Part shown: positions 39,394 to 45,774 of the stretch, one piece after another
Layout of the letters: each line of letters starts with the position of its first letter
Numbering within the stretch: the stretch's first letter is position 1
Assembly: GCF_039645585.1 (NCBI RefSeq)
Contig: NZ_CP147915.1
Span: forward strand, 1,860,001 to 1,924,000
Direction of reading: 5' to 3'
Source: Sulfurimonas sp. HSL-1656
GTDB lineage: Bacteria; Campylobacterota; Campylobacteria; Campylobacterales; Sulfurimonadaceae
DNA length: 64,000 nucleotides
The notes under the pieces: model-generated
The model's input: only the letters and a program-made list of their open reading frames with translations
The model's database searches: none
Told to the model about the DNA's origin: nothing
Translations under genes and position numbers: made by a program

Positions 39394-39421
39394 TCATATC
39401 TACTCTCAAGGCCCCGTGTTT

Positions 39422-40036
39422 ATGGACTTTCTCTTCAATTCCAATGTACAGTTCTACCTGCTGGCTTATTTCGTAGGCGGTATCCCCTTCGGACTGGTCC
39501 TGGCCAAGTTCTTCGCCGGCGTCAACATCAAAGAGAGCGGCTCGAAGAGCATCGGTGCGACGAACGTGCTGCGCGTCGTCAAAGAGAGCAACCCCGCCCT
39601 CGCCAAGAAACTGGGGATCGCGACACTGGTCCTCGATGCCCTTAAAGGGGTCGTCGTCTTACTGATCGCAAAAGCGTTCGGGATGAGCGAAGCGGCCCAG
39701 TGGGCCGTGGCCGTCCTGGCCGTCGCCGGCCACTGTTTCAGCCCCTACCTCTGGTTTGAAGGGGGCAAAGGGATCGCAACGGGCATGGGCGTCATGCTCG
39801 TCATGCTGCCGCTGGAGACGCTGATCGCCCTGGCGGTCTGGGGGATGATGGCCAAAACGGTCCGCATCTCCTCCGTCTCGTCGCTGACCGGCGTGCTTGC
39901 ACTGCTCGTGTCCAGCTTCTTTATTCACCCGGAGATGGCACACGCCCCGGTTACCCTGATCGTCGTGCTCCTCTTTTACAAACACATCCCCAACATCGTC
40001 CGTCTCGTCAAAGGCGAGGAGAAACGCGTCGTCTGA
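39422..40036 (+). CDS. plsY: Acyl-phosphate glycerol-3-phosphate acyltransferase PlsY
   Basis: PlsY transfers an acyl group from acyl phosphate to glycerol 3-phosphate, the first step of phospholipid synthesis. The 204-residue membrane protein has the three catalytic motifs: GGIPFGLVLAKFFAG/GSKSIGATNVLR, HCFSPYLWFEGGKGIATGMG, and the C-terminal YKHIPNIVRL. I favour ATG at 39422, with AAGG ten bases upstream, over an in-frame GTG six bases earlier. Its stop overlaps the folB start (TGATG). Confidence 0.96.
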   Translation: MDFLFNSNVQFYLLAYFVGGIPFGLVLAKFFAGVNIKESGSKSIGATNVLRVVKESNPALAKKLGIATLVLDALKGVVVLLIAKAFGMSEAAQWAVAVLAVAGHCFSPYLWFEGGKGIATGMGVMLVMLPLETLIALAVWGMMAKTVRISSVSSLTGVLALLVSSFFIHPEMAHAPVTLIVVLLFYKHIPNIVRLVKGEEKRVV

Positions 40037-40362
40037 TGACCATCGAGATCCGCGCCCTCACCTTCGACTGCATCATCGGCATCCTCGATTTCGAGCGGGT
40101 CACCCCGCAGCGGGTCGTCATTGATACGGTCATCGACTACGACTACGACGGGGAGCAGTTCCTCGACTACGCCGCCATCGCGGCGCATATCAGAACGCGG
40201 ATGCGCGAGGGAGAGTTCGCCCTTGTCGAAACCGCGCTCCAGGTCCTCACCGATACCCTCAAAATATCATTTCCCGCCATAAAAAGCCTCTCTATCACCA
40301 TCGCCAAACCCGACATTCTCCCCGACTGCAGGGTCTCTGTCACAAAAAAATCCAATTTTTAA
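40036..40362 (+). CDS. folB: Dihydroneopterin aldolase
   Basis: FolB acts in folate synthesis. The 108-residue protein starts MTIEIRALTFDCIIGILDFERVTPQRVVIDTVIDYDY, where IGILDFER matches the family's IGV..EER substrate loop and the short FALVETALQVLTDTL helix follows. The C-terminal strand ends KPDILPDCRVSV. Length is slightly below Escherichia coli FolB. It is coupled to plsY by a one-base overlap. Confidence 0.88.
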   Translation: MTIEIRALTFDCIIGILDFERVTPQRVVIDTVIDYDYDGEQFLDYAAIAAHIRTRMREGEFALVETALQVLTDTLKISFPAIKSLSITIAKPDILPDCRVSVTKKSNF

Positions 40363-40399
40363 AGAAAATTGAAAAAAAGTTTAAAATTTTCTAAAACTG

Positions 40400-40408
40400 T
40401 GCTATACT
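40400..40408 (+). promoter_or_regulatory. Extended -10 promoter for the response regulator
   Basis: TGC-TATACT fits an extended -10 element. It lies in an AT-rich gap of 80 bases after folB, 34 bases before the ATG. A ribosome site (AGAGGA) follows. The AT-rich tract upstream could serve as a sigma-contact or operator region. Confidence 0.6.
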
Positions 40409-40442: not shown

Positions 40443-41114
40443 ATGCGCATTTTGATCATTGAAGATGAGATCACACTCAACAAAACTCTTGCCGAAGGGC
40501 TCAAAGAGTTTGGATACCAGAGCGACGTCGTCGAAACCCTCAAAGACGGTGAATACTACCTCGATATCCGCAACTATGACCTGATTCTGATGGACTGGAT
40601 GCTTCCGGACGGAAACAGCATCGACATTATTCCCGACATCAAAGCCAACACACCCAAAACGGCCGTCGTCGTCCTCTCCGCCCGTGACGACAACGAGAGC
40701 GAAATCGCCGCACTTCGCGCCGGTGCGGACGACTTTATCCGCAAGCCCTTCGACTTCGACGTCCTCGTCGCCCGCCTGGAGGCGCGCCTGCGCTTCGGCG
40801 GCAGCAACATCATCGAGATCGAAGACCTGATCATCAACCCCGAAGAAGAGAAGATCATCTACAAAGAGAAGGAGATCGAGCTCAAGGGCAAGCCGTTCGA
40901 GGTCCTGACACACCTGGCGCGCCACCGCGACCAGATCGTCTCCAAAGAGCAGCTGCTCGACGCCATCTGGGAAGAGCCGGAACTCGTCACACCGAACGTC
41001 ATCGAGGTCGCCATCAACCAGATCCGCCAGAAAATGGACAAACCCCTCAGCATCACAACGATTGAAACCGTACGCCGCCGCGGATACCGTTTTTGTTTTC
41101 CGAAAGAAGCATAA
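40443..41114 (+). CDS. hsrA: OmpR-family response regulator, HsrA/CosR type
   Basis: The 223-residue protein has a receiver domain (1-~110) and a winged-helix DNA-binding domain. The C-terminal half (KGKPFEVLTHLARHRDQIV through VRRRGYRFCFPK) is nearly identical to remembered HP1043/HsrA of Helicobacter and CosR of Campylobacter. Unlike those, the receiver keeps canonical residues: Asp8/Glu9, acceptor Asp51 in LILMDWMLPDG, Ser79 and Lys101. It could therefore be phosphorylated. A sensor kinase gene overlaps its end by 22 bases. Targets are probably redox and housekeeping genes, by analogy only. Confidence 0.9.
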   Translation: MRILIIEDEITLNKTLAEGLKEFGYQSDVVETLKDGEYYLDIRNYDLILMDWMLPDGNSIDIIPDIKANTPKTAVVVLSARDDNESEIAALRAGADDFIRKPFDFDVLVARLEARLRFGGSNIIEIEDLIINPEEEKIIYKEKEIELKGKPFEVLTHLARHRDQIVSKEQLLDAIWEEPELVTPNVIEVAINQIRQKMDKPLSITTIETVRRRGYRFCFPKEA

Positions 41115-42400
41115 GAAACCGGTTTCTCATCCAGCTCATCGTCGCTTCGGCGGCGCTGCTGATCATCTTCTCCTCCATACTCTATTTTTACATCCGGCAA
41201 AATATTTACGACGAAAAACAGCTTGAGATGCTGCAGTTCGCCAAGAACATCACCGCATTTCAGTCCCTCTCCGACACGATGAGCAACGATACCGACCCCC
41301 TGCTGGGTGTCAGCGTCGAACTGATCCGCTACGATTCATCCGATACCGAACCGCATTTCTTTGACGACAGCAGCGAGGGGCGCGACTACCTGATTCTCCT
41401 CTACCCCTTCGAGCAAGCCCAGCAGACCTACCTCAAGGTCTCCAAAGATATCAGCACGATGAAGAAACTGCTCAAAAAGATCCTGCGTTCGATCTTTATC
41501 ATCAACGCCATCGGCTTCTTTATCATCGTGCTCTACGCGATCGCCCTCTCCAAAATGCTGACGATCCCCATCCGGCAGCTCAGCCACCGTCTGTCCAACA
41601 TGAACGAGCACCTCGTCCGGCCGATCCGCGTGGAGCACCTCCCCGAGGAGTTCGAACCCCTCGGCATCACGATCAACCGCCTGCTCGGACGGATCCAGAA
41701 CTTCGTCAAGTACCAAAAAGAGCTCTTCATCGGCGCCGCGCATGAGCTCAAAACCCCCCTGGCGGTCATCAAGCTCAAGAACCAGGTCACCCTGATCAAA
41801 AAACGTTCTCCCGAAGAGTATATCGAGGCGATCAAAAAGACGAACGAAACCGTCGACGAAATGAACAAGATCGTCGCCGACATCCTTAATATCGGGCGTC
41901 AGGAGGGGGCGCAGCTCGAAGCGCCGGTACGCCGGGACATCATCGACATGCTCCGGCGCAAGGGGGAAGACTTCACCCTGCTCGCCCGTGCCGAACAGAA
42001 GACGCTCGAATACGACCTCCAGCCCGAAACCTATGAGGCGACGATCCAGGAGGGACTGCTCAACCAGATCCTGCAGAACTTCCTGCAAAACGCCGTCAAA
42101 TTCACGCCCGAAGGGCGCAAGATCACCCTGACCAGCCGCGCCGAGGGGGAAGACCTCGTGATCAGGGTGATCGACGAAGGGTGCGGGATCGACGATAGCG
42201 TCGACCTCTTCGCCCCTTTCAAACGCCTCGGGAACAAATCCGGCGTCGGCCTGGGACTCTTCCTGGCCAAAAGCGCCGCGGATGCCATGGGGGCGGAGAT
42301 CTCCCTGCGCAACCGGACCGACGGTGTCGACGGCACGGAAGCGACGCTGGTGCTGCGCGCTAAGCTCTGCTGCCCGCTTCCCCTGCCCAAGAAAAAATAG
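41093..42400 (+). CDS. Sensor histidine kinase paired with the HsrA-like regulator
   Basis: The 435-residue kinase has one membrane helix at ~12-33, a periplasmic sensor region of about 95 residues with no recognised fold, a second helix (SIFIINAIGFFIIVLYAIAL), a HAMP-like linker, and a HisKA domain with AAHELKTPLAVIK. The ATPase domain has NQILQNFLQNAVKF, VIDEGCGID and GVGLGLFLAKSAADAMG. The best start is TTG at 41093 inside the regulator gene; SIRNRFLIQ after it is a usual kinase N-terminus. Tight coupling makes it the likely cognate kinase. Confidence 0.9.
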   Translation: MFSERSIRNRFLIQLIVASAALLIIFSSILYFYIRQNIYDEKQLEMLQFAKNITAFQSLSDTMSNDTDPLLGVSVELIRYDSSDTEPHFFDDSSEGRDYLILLYPFEQAQQTYLKVSKDISTMKKLLKKILRSIFIINAIGFFIIVLYAIALSKMLTIPIRQLSHRLSNMNEHLVRPIRVEHLPEEFEPLGITINRLLGRIQNFVKYQKELFIGAAHELKTPLAVIKLKNQVTLIKKRSPEEYIEAIKKTNETVDEMNKIVADILNIGRQEGAQLEAPVRRDIIDMLRRKGEDFTLLARAEQKTLEYDLQPETYEATIQEGLLNQILQNFLQNAVKFTPEGRKITLTSRAEGEDLVIRVIDEGCGIDDSVDLFAPFKRLGNKSGVGLGLFLAKSAADAMGAEISLRNRTDGVDGTEATLVLRAKLCCPLPLPKKK

Positions 42401-42551: not shown

Positions 42552-42809
42552 ATGTCCCTGCTGATCAACGATGAATGTATCGCCTGCGATGCCTGTAGAG
42601 AAGAGTGCCCGACCGAAGCGATTGAAGAGGGGGACCCGATCTACATCATCGACCCCGACCGCTGTACCGAATGCGTCGGTACCTATGACGAACCGGCGTG
42701 TATCGCCGTCTGCCCGGTCGACTGTATCGTCCCGGACAAAGACAACGTCGAGACCGTCGCCGAGCTGAAGTTCAAACACGACCAGATCATGGCCGAATAC
42801 GAGGAGTAA
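42552..42809 (+). CDS. 2[4Fe-4S] ferredoxin (YfhL-like)
   Basis: This 85-residue electron carrier has CIACDACREECP and a second cluster motif with an insertion, CTECVGTYDEPACIAVCP, as in the YfhL/Allochromatium-type ferredoxins. The acidic C-terminal tail fits that group. It sits alone with its own promoter and is followed by a terminator hairpin. Likely partners are low-potential enzymes elsewhere in the genome. Confidence 0.95.
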   Translation: MSLLINDECIACDACREECPTEAIEEGDPIYIIDPDRCTECVGTYDEPACIAVCPVDCIVPDKDNVETVAELKFKHDQIMAEYEE

Positions 42810-42844: not shown

Positions 42845-44173
42845 CTACCCCCTGTGTGCCTGCGCCGCAGCTGACGCCCGTCTGCTTTTCAGGACAAAGT
42901 ACCCCCACAACGTCACACCGTAACCGAAGATACTCAGCATAACGACACCAATGGTCACCGATTCGAAGAGCGCCTTATGGGCAAAGCTGTCGGGGATCAT
43001 ATGCACGAGGATGATCGAGAGCGCCCCCTTCATCCCGCTGAAGGTGAGAATGAACCACCCCTCGAACCCCACCGGCTTGATCAGGTTGAACCGGTGGCCG
43101 AAAAGGGCGAACTTCGCCATGGAGAGGGCCCGGATCAGCGTCGTGGCGGCGAACATGGCGAGGATCTCGTACCGGTAGTGCCAGAGCTGTTCATAATCGA
43201 CCATTTCCGCCAGGGTAAAGAAGATCATGACCGTCGCCAGGTAGCCGAACTCCTTCGCCATCTCGAAAATATACTCCAGGCGCTGTTCCGTCGTCGCCTG
43301 ATAACCGCCGAAACGGAGCTGATGATAAAGCTGCTCAAGCCGGTAGCTCTTCGTTTTGCGCGCTTCTCGGGCTTCGCTGCGCCGCAGATCGGCATCGATC
43401 CAGGCTTTCGTGGCGATGATGGCCGCGATAAGGGTCAAAATGCCGCTGACGTGCATCTCTTCACCCAGCACGTAGGCCGCATACCCTTCCACGACAAAGA
43501 TGAAGAACTCCCCGCGCTGATGCTCGACCAGCTTCATCATCAGGTAGAACCCGAAGCCCATCGCGATCCCCAGGCCGAGACTGACCGCGAAGACCCGCAG
43601 CGCGTCGAACGAAGCTGCCGCCGGATCGATCGACCCGCTGAGCATCCACGGCAGCCCGACGAAGAAGAAGGCGATGACTGCCGTGGCGTCGTTGCCGAGC
43701 GATTCGCCCTCGATCAGCACCTTGAGGTCATGGCCGATCCCCTCAAAGCGCGACAGCACGGACTGCACGCTCACCGCATCGGTCGCCATGTTGATCGCAA
43801 ACAGCGCCACATAGCCGCCCAGGCTCAGCGGGGCGAAGAGTTCCAACTGGTACAGGCTCGCTCCCGCCGCGATGGAGAGCGCTACGGCGAAGACCGCCAG
43901 GTAGAAGATCTCGAAGCCGAAACGCCGCACATCCGCAAAATGCAGGTGCAGCGCATCCCCCATAAAGATGAGCGGGATACAGAGCAGGATCACGGTATCG
44001 AAGTGGAGCCGCAGATCGAGCGGAACGGCAGCGGGCAGCAGGTGGTAGACGAGGTAAGAACCGATCAGCAGCAAAAAGACGGCGGGAACCTTCAGACGGT
44101 CGGCCAGTGTATCGGAAATAACGACCACGGCCAAGAGGGTAATCAGCATGATTTCGGGGGCAAAAGAGTGCAT
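42845..44173 (-). CDS. CPA1-type cation:proton antiporter
   Basis: The 442-residue protein has about 12 membrane helices. LFAINMATDAVSVQSVL and EGESLGNDATAVIAFFF carry the Asp and Glu-Asn-Asp residues expected in sodium/proton exchangers of the CPA1 family. A soluble insertion near residues 285-330 (SEAREARKTKSYRLEQLYHQL) interrupts the helices. I start at ATG 44173, preceded by AGGAAGG; a longer frame upstream would begin within the neighbouring promoter area. Na+ or K+ specificity cannot be read from the sequence. Confidence 0.88.
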   Translation of the reverse strand: MHSFAPEIMLITLLAVVVISDTLADRLKVPAVFLLLIGSYLVYHLLPAAVPLDLRLHFDTVILLCIPLIFMGDALHLHFADVRRFGFEIFYLAVFAVALSIAAGASLYQLELFAPLSLGGYVALFAINMATDAVSVQSVLSRFEGIGHDLKVLIEGESLGNDATAVIAFFFVGLPWMLSGSIDPAAASFDALRVFAVSLGLGIAMGFGFYLMMKLVEHQRGEFFIFVVEGYAAYVLGEEMHVSGILTLIAAIIATKAWIDADLRRSEAREARKTKSYRLEQLYHQLRFGGYQATTEQRLEYIFEMAKEFGYLATVMIFFTLAEMVDYEQLWHYRYEILAMFAATTLIRALSMAKFALFGHRFNLIKPVGFEGWFILTFSGMKGALSIILVHMIPDSFAHKALFESVTIGVVMLSIFGYGVTLWGYFVLKSRRASAAAQAHRG

Positions 44174-44192
44174 GGACCTTCCTGTTTTCGCC

Positions 44193-44198
44193 ATTATA
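44193..44198 (-). promoter_or_regulatory. -10 box upstream of the antiporter gene
   Basis: TATAAT on the minus strand 20 bases before the chosen ATG, implying a very short leader. Confidence 0.5.
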
Positions 44199-44275
44199 GC
44201 GTGTCGTCCGGGCGCCGAAGGCCTCAAACGAAGCGGCCCGTACCCAACCTTGGCGGACTCTGAGGCGGATTTTTG

Positions 44276-44281
44276 TATAAT
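44276..44281 (+). promoter_or_regulatory. -10 box upstream of the Ppx/GppA gene
   Basis: TATAAT 20 bases before the ATG, in the divergent gap with the antiporter gene. Confidence 0.55.
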
Positions 44282-44301
44282 CCGCTCAAAAAGGCTCACT
44301 T

Positions 44302-45774
44302 ATGGCGAAGCGCACCGCGATCATCGATATCGGGTCCAACTCCGTACGGATGGTCGTCTTCGAAAAAAGCAGCCGCTTTGCCTTCTCCCTGCTGCATGAG
44401 TCCAAAAGCCGCGTCCGGATCAGCGAGGGTGCCTATGCAGCCGGCGGGACCCTTCAGCCCGATGCCATCGAACGTGCTTTGAAAGCCCTGGGAGAGTTTT
44501 TGAGCATCGCCCGCTCCTACGGCAGCCGCAAACTGCTCTGCGTCGCGACCTCCGCCGTCCGTGATGCGCCCAACCGTGCCGAATTTCTTTCCCGTGCCAA
44601 AAAGGAACTCGGCCTGCAGATCAAGGTGATCGACGGTGAGAAAGAGGCCTACCTCGGTGGGGTTGCGGCCGCCAACCTTCTGCCCTCCATGGCGGCCCGC
44701 ACCATTGACATCGGCGGCGGTTCCACGGAGTACGCCTGCATCGCGGCAGGGAGTGTCATGCAGAGCGCTTCGCTCGACCTTGGGACCGTCCGGCTCAAGG
44801 AGCTTTTCTTCGACCGGGGCGACGTCGAAGGGGCCAGCGCCTACATCGATACCCAGTTCGCCGCGATGCCGCCGGTGAGCAGTCCGATCGTTATCGGGAT
44901 CGGCGGGACCTTCCGCGCCCTCGCGCAGATCATCCAGAAAAACCAGGCACATCCGATGAAGAAGCTGCATGCCTTCACCTTCGGCGCGGATGCCCTGATG
45001 GCGCTGGGAAAGAAGATCGTCGCCGCGCCCGACGACGCTTCGCTCAAACAGCTCGGGGTAAAAAAGGAACGCTACGATGTTATCCGTCCCGGGACGCTCA
45101 TTCTCATGCGCTTCTTGCAGCATGTCGGCTGCGAGACCCTGGTCACCAGCGGGGCGGGGGTACGCGAAGGGCTCTACCTGACCGACCTCCTGCGCCACAA
45201 CCGCCACCGCTTTCCTGAGGGGTACAACCCCTCCCTGCGGTACCTGCTTGACTGCCATACGATCGAAACGACCTTCTCCAACCAGCTTCCGACCGTAGCC
45301 ATGCGGCTCTTTGACCTGCTGCAACCCCCCATGGAGCTGCCGGCAGAGAGCCGCCGCCTGCTCAAGATCGCGGCGCAGCTGGCCAAAGTCGGTGCGTCGG
45401 TCCATTTTTACTCCTACCACAAGAACAGCCAGTACCTCGTCGAAAGCGCCCTGGAGTACGGCTACAGCCATGAGGAGATCATGACCGTGGCGGCACTGGT
45501 CCGTTACCACAAGAGCCGCAAGATCGCCAAGCCGTTCCAGAGCGACTACCAGCGGCTCCTGCCCAAGGCGAAGATTCTCAACCGCCTCAACCTCCTGCTG
45601 GCTCTGGCCGACGCCCTGCTGACCCACCGCCCGCACAATATCGACTTCACCCTGACGCTCGACGAAGCCGGCGCTCTGCACGTACGCGCCACAGAAGGTG
45701 CACACCTCTATCTTGCAAAAGAGCAGATCGAACGCCTCGGGATCGAGAAAGAGCTGACGGTATCTATCGATTAG
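44302..45774 (+). CDS. Ppx/GppA family exopolyphosphatase/guanosine pentaphosphatase
   Basis: These ASKHA-fold phosphatases hydrolyse polyphosphate and/or pppGpp. The 490-residue protein has AIIDIGSNSVRMVVFE at the N-terminus, ATSAVRDAPN, a TIDIGGGSTEYACI phosphate loop, DLGTVRLKELFF, and VIGIGGTFRALAQI. A C-terminal HD-like region (residues ~310-490) is present, as in long Ppx forms. Which substrate dominates cannot be told. It converges on bamA. Confidence 0.93.
   Translation: MAKRTAIIDIGSNSVRMVVFEKSSRFAFSLLHESKSRVRISEGAYAAGGTLQPDAIERALKALGEFLSIARSYGSRKLLCVATSAVRDAPNRAEFLSRAKKELGLQIKVIDGEKEAYLGGVAAANLLPSMAARTIDIGGGSTEYACIAAGSVMQSASLDLGTVRLKELFFDRGDVEGASAYIDTQFAAMPPVSSPIVIGIGGTFRALAQIIQKNQAHPMKKLHAFTFGADALMALGKKIVAAPDDASLKQLGVKKERYDVIRPGTLILMRFLQHVGCETLVTSGAGVREGLYLTDLLRHNRHRFPEGYNPSLRYLLDCHTIETTFSNQLPTVAMRLFDLLQPPMELPAESRRLLKIAAQLAKVGASVHFYSYHKNSQYLVESALEYGYSHEEIMTVAALVRYHKSRKIAKPFQSDYQRLLPKAKILNRLNLLLALADALLTHRPHNIDFTLTLDEAGALHVRATEGAHLYLAKEQIERLGIEKELTVSID

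Follow-up and report, generated by a model that had tools for sequence, protein, structure and literature searches.

The window (the whole 64,000-nucleotide stretch analysed here, from a 2.56-Mb single-contig genome) carries a cosR/hsrA response regulator gene followed directly by a histidine kinase gene, cosS, with plsY and folB upstream and genes for a ferredoxin and a Ppx/GppA phosphatase downstream (Table 1). The regulator belongs with the CosR/HsrA orthologs: it has their conserved DNA-binding domain, it is clearly the closest regulator in its genome, at 482 bits against 95 for the next best, and its neighbors are of the type seen around the orthologs outside families f2 and f7. Handles of this kind denote groups of the phylum, for some of which we infer a likeness: f2 is Helicobacteraceae-like, f3 Campylobacteraceae-like, f4 Sulfurovaceae-like, f5 Nautiliaceae-like, f7 Arcobacteraceae-like, and g15 jejuni-like. 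The nearest named relatives by CosR, among the matches listed and with very near records possibly missing from them, are Sulfuricurvum/Sulfurimonas assemblies. An Na+/H+ antiporter-like gene that scores below the family cut-offs (42845-44299, minus strand) separates the ferredoxin gene of the window from gppA; the two adjoin directly at loci L187, L219, and L201.

Table 1. Features at and around the cosRS locus, in positions of the window
Feature	Position	Strand	Basis or comment
plsY, upstream neighbor of cosR	39416..40036	+	domain and neighbor comparison
folB, upstream neighbor of cosR	40036..40362	+	domain and neighbor comparison
cosR/hsrA, PhoB/OmpR-family response regulator, 223 aa, ATG start	40443..41114	+	Pfam Response_reg and Trans_reg_C
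CosR receiver domain, residues 1-118 (span used for rates)	40443..40796	+	Pfam PF00072 at residues 3-112
CosR acidic pair E7/D8, codons	40461..40466	+	both residues present
CosR D51 codon, expected phospho-acceptor	40593..40595	+	role from PMC3938529
CosR S79 codon, switch Ser/Thr	40677..40679	+	sequence
CosR K101 codon, pocket lysine	40743..40745	+	sequence
CosR DNA-binding domain, residues 124-221 (span used for rates)	40812..41105	+	Pfam Trans_reg_C, winged helix
cosS histidine kinase, 435 aa, TTG start	41093..42400	+	HisKA and HATPase_c
Overlap of cosS start and cosR end, 22 nt	41093..41114	+	depends on the TTG start
CosS H217 codon (HELKTP), expected autophosphorylation site	41741..41743	+	sequence motif
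YfhL-type 4Fe-4S ferredoxin gene (fdx), downstream neighbor	42552..42809	+	domain and neighbor comparison
Ppx/GppA phosphatase gene (gppA), downstream neighbor	44302..45774	+	domain and neighbor comparison

An earlier note on this DNA had described an HsrA/CosR-type regulator coupled to a kinase, and the domains and the pocket residues D8, E9, D51, S79, and K101 are as it gave them. It had taken D8/E9 to be the acidic pair; both residues are there, but by equivalence to E9/D10 of PhoB the pair is E7/D8, and D8 is the counterpart of the magnesium-binding Asp of that protein. The pocket of the window CosR is complete (E7, D8, D51, S79, K101). Its stop codon does lie, as had been said, inside a complete histidine kinase gene, whose product has H217 in the motif HELKTP together with the N, F, G1, and G2 boxes. 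With this kinase directly downstream and D51 in place the locus fits the CosRS type, and with the kinase adjacent and the pocket intact it falls outside the definition of an orphan atypical regulator of the HsrA kind.

Of the 55 kinase-bearing loci that belong to neither f1 nor f7, 50 have an in-frame TTG at the matching position; it is present at only 32/100 in the family of the window and its named close relatives, and at none of the f7 loci among those listed. Because TTG placement varies in this way between families, the overlap with cosR is common and not universal; where it occurs, translation of cosS is probably coupled to that of cosR. A structure prediction for CosS from 43 aligned sequences (mean pLDDT 72, pTM 0.45) suggests a small beta-rich outer domain flanked by two long helices. 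The N-terminal part of CosS is shortened at four g8 loci (L181, L303, L308, L310), with open frames of 360-402 aa.

Whether cosR has a CosR box upstream was scored with the HP1043 motif TTTAAG-N5-TTTAAG (PMC5253667). Matches run slightly above shuffles, with 28/181 upstream regions at p 0.05 or less, and the region of the window is not among these 28 (p 0.24). By eye, positions 40366-40408 and many other cosR upstream regions have TTTAA, TTGAA, or CTAAA units every 11 bases, ending at an extended -10 (TGnTATAAT), in a geometry that resembles the HP1043 site with a motif score not clearly above shuffles. The periodic promoters of Campylobacter have a similar look.

Every phylum genome drawn (397/397) gave a CosR match with an E value of 1e-40 or lower, a distribution that would be consistent with an essential gene. 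We read cosR in 193 genomes outside the family of the window, at 30 loci inside it, and at 80 named loci. Outside the family the pocket is intact in 85/85 genomes with cosS within 1.5 kb downstream, while the 108 without it divide into 12 intact and 96 not, D51 being kept in 9 of those 96. Counted by position over all loci, near-duplicates and three paralogs among them, 186/186 with cosS within 1.5 kb downstream have an intact pocket, versus 22/121 without. The 30 loci of the window's family and the 80 named close relatives, near-duplicates included, have intact pockets throughout (110/110); the ten of them that have no cosS downstream come from eight genomes, all eight carrying a kinase elsewhere, in one case as a partial match (G397, L013). 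Genome G348 likewise has no cosS beside cosR, a kinase elsewhere, and an intact pocket. Since L030 stops at a contig end, its kinase may not have moved. We accordingly dropped position beside cosR as the measure of kinase presence, as those ten loci and G348 look kinase-free in genomes that carry the kinase.

Some loci show rearranged or duplicated forms. In G133, cosS lies about 3.5 kb from cosR with the pocket intact (L321), and a long opposite-strand gene stands between the two at the same place (L012). Second CosR-like regulators with changed pockets occur in f6 (L197, L198, L319, L320), beside first copies that keep pocket and kinase, and in f9 (L290, G248); these may reflect decay following duplication within the genome. 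At L232, in the one-contig g15 genome G173, cosR is in two overlapping frames that split receiver from DNA-binding domain, possibly by sequencing error.

Searched genome-wide, CosS orthologs reach at least 160 bits and the family members that come next at most 92, the second piece of a split match in G365 being the exception to that gap. By this threshold 61/115 genomes have a CosS ortholog and 54/115 do not; G087 and G008, single genomes with the kinase in two frames and possible sequencing errors, are counted as having it. The comparison with the pocket covers 110/115, no cosR having been read in G149, G161, G039, G116, and G060. Genomes that carry a kinase at any position all have an intact pocket (59/59); among those with none, 11/51 do (three g55, three g34, five g35). 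The remaining kinase-free genomes either keep D51 with other pocket residues changed (9/51, namely eight of f5 and G297) or have no D51 (31/51). A kinase together with a broken CosR pocket was thus seen in 0 genomes examined, and kinases away from the locus also go with an intact pocket. Asp51, proposed in the earlier note as the marker to score, is a poor one when used alone, and we rejected it as the measure of the pocket on account of f5 and G297.

The two halves of CosR differ in what goes with the kinase. Receiver identity to the window is 73% (56-94) with kinase and 53% (36-75) without, and DNA-binding identity is 90% (74-98) and 86% (66-94), respectively. Residues 181-195, LVTPNVIEVAINQIR, are identical in 106/110 genomes. 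The DNA-binding half had been called almost identical to that of HsrA and CosR; with the half as a whole at 85-87%, the description suits the recognition helix better.

One account of these pockets is that Asp51 was regained in the lineage of the window from an orphan ancestor, which the earlier note had named as an outcome that would undo an ancestral pair. G297, with Asp at 51 inside a clade having other residues there, indicates that a change to Asp can happen; G297 has D51 only, D8 and S79 being changed, whereas all five pocket residues are intact in 59/59 kinase-bearing genomes of many families. No regain was seen, and we give this account, already disfavored, hardly any credence.

A second account is that CosS chiefly serves another regulator, the CosR pocket being kept for other phosphodonors. 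The 11 kinase-free genomes with a full pocket in g34, g55, and g35 speak for it, as does the C. fetus cosS knockout, reported to grow normally with slightly lower aerotolerance and little effect overall (PMC3938529); against it stand the association of CosS with an intact pocket in all 59 genomes checked, off-locus kinases included, the overlap of cosR and cosS in many families, and the direct phosphorylation of C. fetus CosR by C. fetus CosS (same source). We regard it as improbable.

The number and direction of the kinase changes were taken from trees. Seven changes are required on an RpoB tree built from 89 genomes, in g34, the Helicobacter core, G034 within g8, g55, g15, g50, and between f5 and the rest; the count is from the corrected tree, and the placement on branches from an earlier one in which the G074 RpoB was read on the wrong strand. 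(Two of the 89 rows were left out of the trait tests, and G173 also from the rates; G365 has no RpoB match.) A tree of 45 kinases shows 12 changes of family label where the minimum is 11, agreeing with RpoB by family. Because the kinase tracks the families, the changes read as losses of one old gene, f5 excepted. A topology that unites g34 with the Helicobacter core is rejected (p-AU 0.038), and as this is a moderate result from RpoB alone, we count the losses as five or six. The expectation that Campylobacter and Helicobacter lost the kinase was too broad, since 6/8 sampled f3 genera and two f2 genera keep it, and it was lost also in Sulfurovaceae-like g50.

Gene order is a further indicator. 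The neighbors plsY, folB, fdx, and gppA are common to the kinase-free f5, g15, g50, and g55 and to the kinase-bearing families except f2 and f7. All four are found at 8/8 loci in f5; g15 has plsY in 20/22, folB in 18/22, fdx in 18/22, and gppA in 22/22; g50 has 11/11, 11/11, 11/11, and 9/11; and the single g55 locus examined has most of them. With the kinase, f8 has the four in 9/9, f9, f10, f11, and f12 mostly have them, f3 has plsY in 18/20, folB in 18/20, fdx in 8/20, and gppA in 19/20, and f4 and f6 have them less often. Among groups that share these neighbors, the distance from cosR to the start of the ferredoxin frame is about 1.3-1.9 kb where there is a kinase and no more than 0.4 kb where there is none. 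None of the four was found around cosR in f2, with kinase or without, or in f7, which rules out an identical gene order everywhere and means that, for Helicobacter, loss of the kinase in place is unsupported by gene order. The agreement of kinase and RpoB trees, with the flanks of f5, g15, g50, and g55 matching those of kinase-bearing families, supports the claim that the pair, a canonical two-component system, is older than the orphans nested among kinase-bearing lineages.

The phylum root falls outside that support. We take f5 to be the deepest family and use it as the root; as it is without kinase, a single later gain takes no more steps than a single loss. On that reading the kinase would have arrived one time, in the space between cosR and the ferredoxin gene and following the f5 split, making the orphan the oldest state and the other orphans secondary. 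The f5 loci, with the four neighbors around cosR and no cosS (8/8), are what such a history would leave, a CosS ortholog at E 1e-20 was found in 0/9 f5 genomes searched, and no close cosS paralog appeared in six genomes searched. The f5 receivers themselves tell against it: they keep D51, S79, and K101 beside K or R at residue 8 (8/8), resembling the decayed form of a receiver once phosphorylated, and with Lys or Arg in place of the counterpart of the magnesium-binding Asp of PhoB, f5 CosR is probably unphosphorylated despite D51. The f5 rooting, too, is an assumption. A single gain is a possibility that we hold as the less likely history, and the ancestral-pair view, in which the orphans descend from a two-component form as the earlier note suggested, has support across the phylum apart from one deep family. 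Three f5 genomes have a second regulator unusually near CosR, at 122-143 bits (G040:C2:338336, G028:C1:228055, G004:C1:1650096); the one in G028 has a histidine kinase match about 0.5 kb away.

Rates relative to RpoB separate the two halves of the protein. The receiver/RpoB rate is 1.79 in g15, 2.31 in the Helicobacter core, 3.43 in g50, and 1.92 in f5, against 0.27-1.08 in seven kinase-bearing groups; the kinase-free, pocket-intact g34 and g55 are at 0.79 and 0.41. The DNA-binding/RpoB rate is 0.50, 1.12, 0.21, and 1.00 in g15, the Helicobacter core, g50, and f5, and 0.20-1.71 in kinase-bearing groups, the top value being that of f6; ten groups other than the Helicobacter core, f5, and f6 have 0.15-0.78. 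There is no kinase-linked split in the DNA-binding domain, yet the domain as a whole is not frozen. A model in which kinase and pocket depend on each other beats independence with a likelihood ratio of 32.5 for D51 and 35.7 for the pocket (4 df), a test that is generous when independent events are few. By independent pairs, three of six agree, none oppose, and three show no difference, so the sign test is not significant (p 0.25). Likelihood fits of the order of loss, which do not favor kinase or pocket as the first to go, involve a state that was seen in no genome or a rapid regain. The 11 genomes with an intact pocket and no kinase would suit an order in which the kinase goes first, though another phosphodonor could also explain them; the slow receiver of g34 and g55 beside the intact pocket could mean a recent kinase loss or another phosphodonor.

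We consider it highly probable that CosRS is a two-component system with a dispensable kinase input to an essential regulator, and that repeated losses of the kinase were followed by receiver decay. CosS, anchored in the membrane by two helices that would flank a small outer domain, would autophosphorylate on H217 and pass the phosphoryl group to D51, which would shift CosR activity at its promoters. The essential job of CosR would be done by the DNA-binding domain with phosphorylation not needed, and the kinase would therefore be a dispensable input. The pair would date back at least to the ancestor shared by all of the phylum except f5, and the kinase would have been lost on five or six occasions (Helicobacter core, g34, one g8 species, g55, g15, g50), most losses leading to decay of the receiver under an unchanged DNA-recognition helix, with HsrA and the C. 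jejuni CosR as presumed end products. That it was one dispensable kinase throughout, each loss orphaning an essential regulator, with decay in one direction and phosphorylation never essential, the species of the window included, we favor with some reserve. If true, g34 and g55 are groups caught midway, having lost the kinase but not yet the pocket. The essential regulators HsrA and CosR are under study as drug targets and are mostly presented as phosphorylation-independent oddities; the survey would recast them as end points of repeated loss, names groups with intermediate states, and gives a genome set on which to ask how an essential response regulator fares with its input removed, and whether groups that keep the pocket but have no CosS draw on another phosphodonor.

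The cosRS pair itself is already known, because Hwang et al. 2014 (PMC3938529) named CosS and gave its distribution; the window adds a further CosRS, in a Sulfuricurvum/Sulfurimonas-like genome, and the phylum-wide survey is the addition. Judged by title and start of abstract among the matches listed, the open-licence literature yielded no phylum-wide cosRS study, and nothing was found there on atypical regulators and gene loss. The 2014 paper reports cosS in non-thermotolerant Campylobacter, Wolinella, Arcobacter (A. butzleri), Sulfurospirillum, and H. pullorum. Within Campylobacter it reports D51 for every non-thermotolerant member and for no thermotolerant one. That CosR has the Asp in Wolinella and Arcobacter and another residue in C. 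jejuni had been noted by Hwang et al. 2011 (PMC3139631), and a 2024 structure paper repeats the 2014 findings on CosS and CosR (PMC10936212).

The closest known system is CosRS of C. fetus and relatives, in which, as in the window, a D51-bearing CosR ortholog is followed directly by a kinase gene (PMC3938529). It belongs to another family than the window pair, whose setting is Sulfuricurvum/Sulfurimonas-like. According to that source, cosR knockouts of C. fetus were unobtainable, its CosR binds C. jejuni CosR targets very weakly, and its CosS does not phosphorylate C. jejuni CosR, even with N51D. CosR of C. jejuni (Cj0355c; PDB 8uvx, 8uuz; PMC10936212) has a DNA-binding half 86% identical to that of the window and the same folB and ferredoxin neighbors (PMC3139631), but no kinase, a replaced D51, and a receiver only 58% identical. 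HsrA/HP1043 of H. pylori (PDB 2hqr, 2hqn; PMC5253667) was compared through four loci, L119, L120, L122, and L127, marked by K8 and a gap at 51-54. Their DNA-binding halves are 85-87% identical to that of the window CosR and their receivers 42-44%; the plsY, folB, fdx, and gppA neighbors were not found alongside them, and HsrA, unlike the window CosR, has no kinase, Lys in place of D8, and residues 51-54 deleted (PMC3139631).
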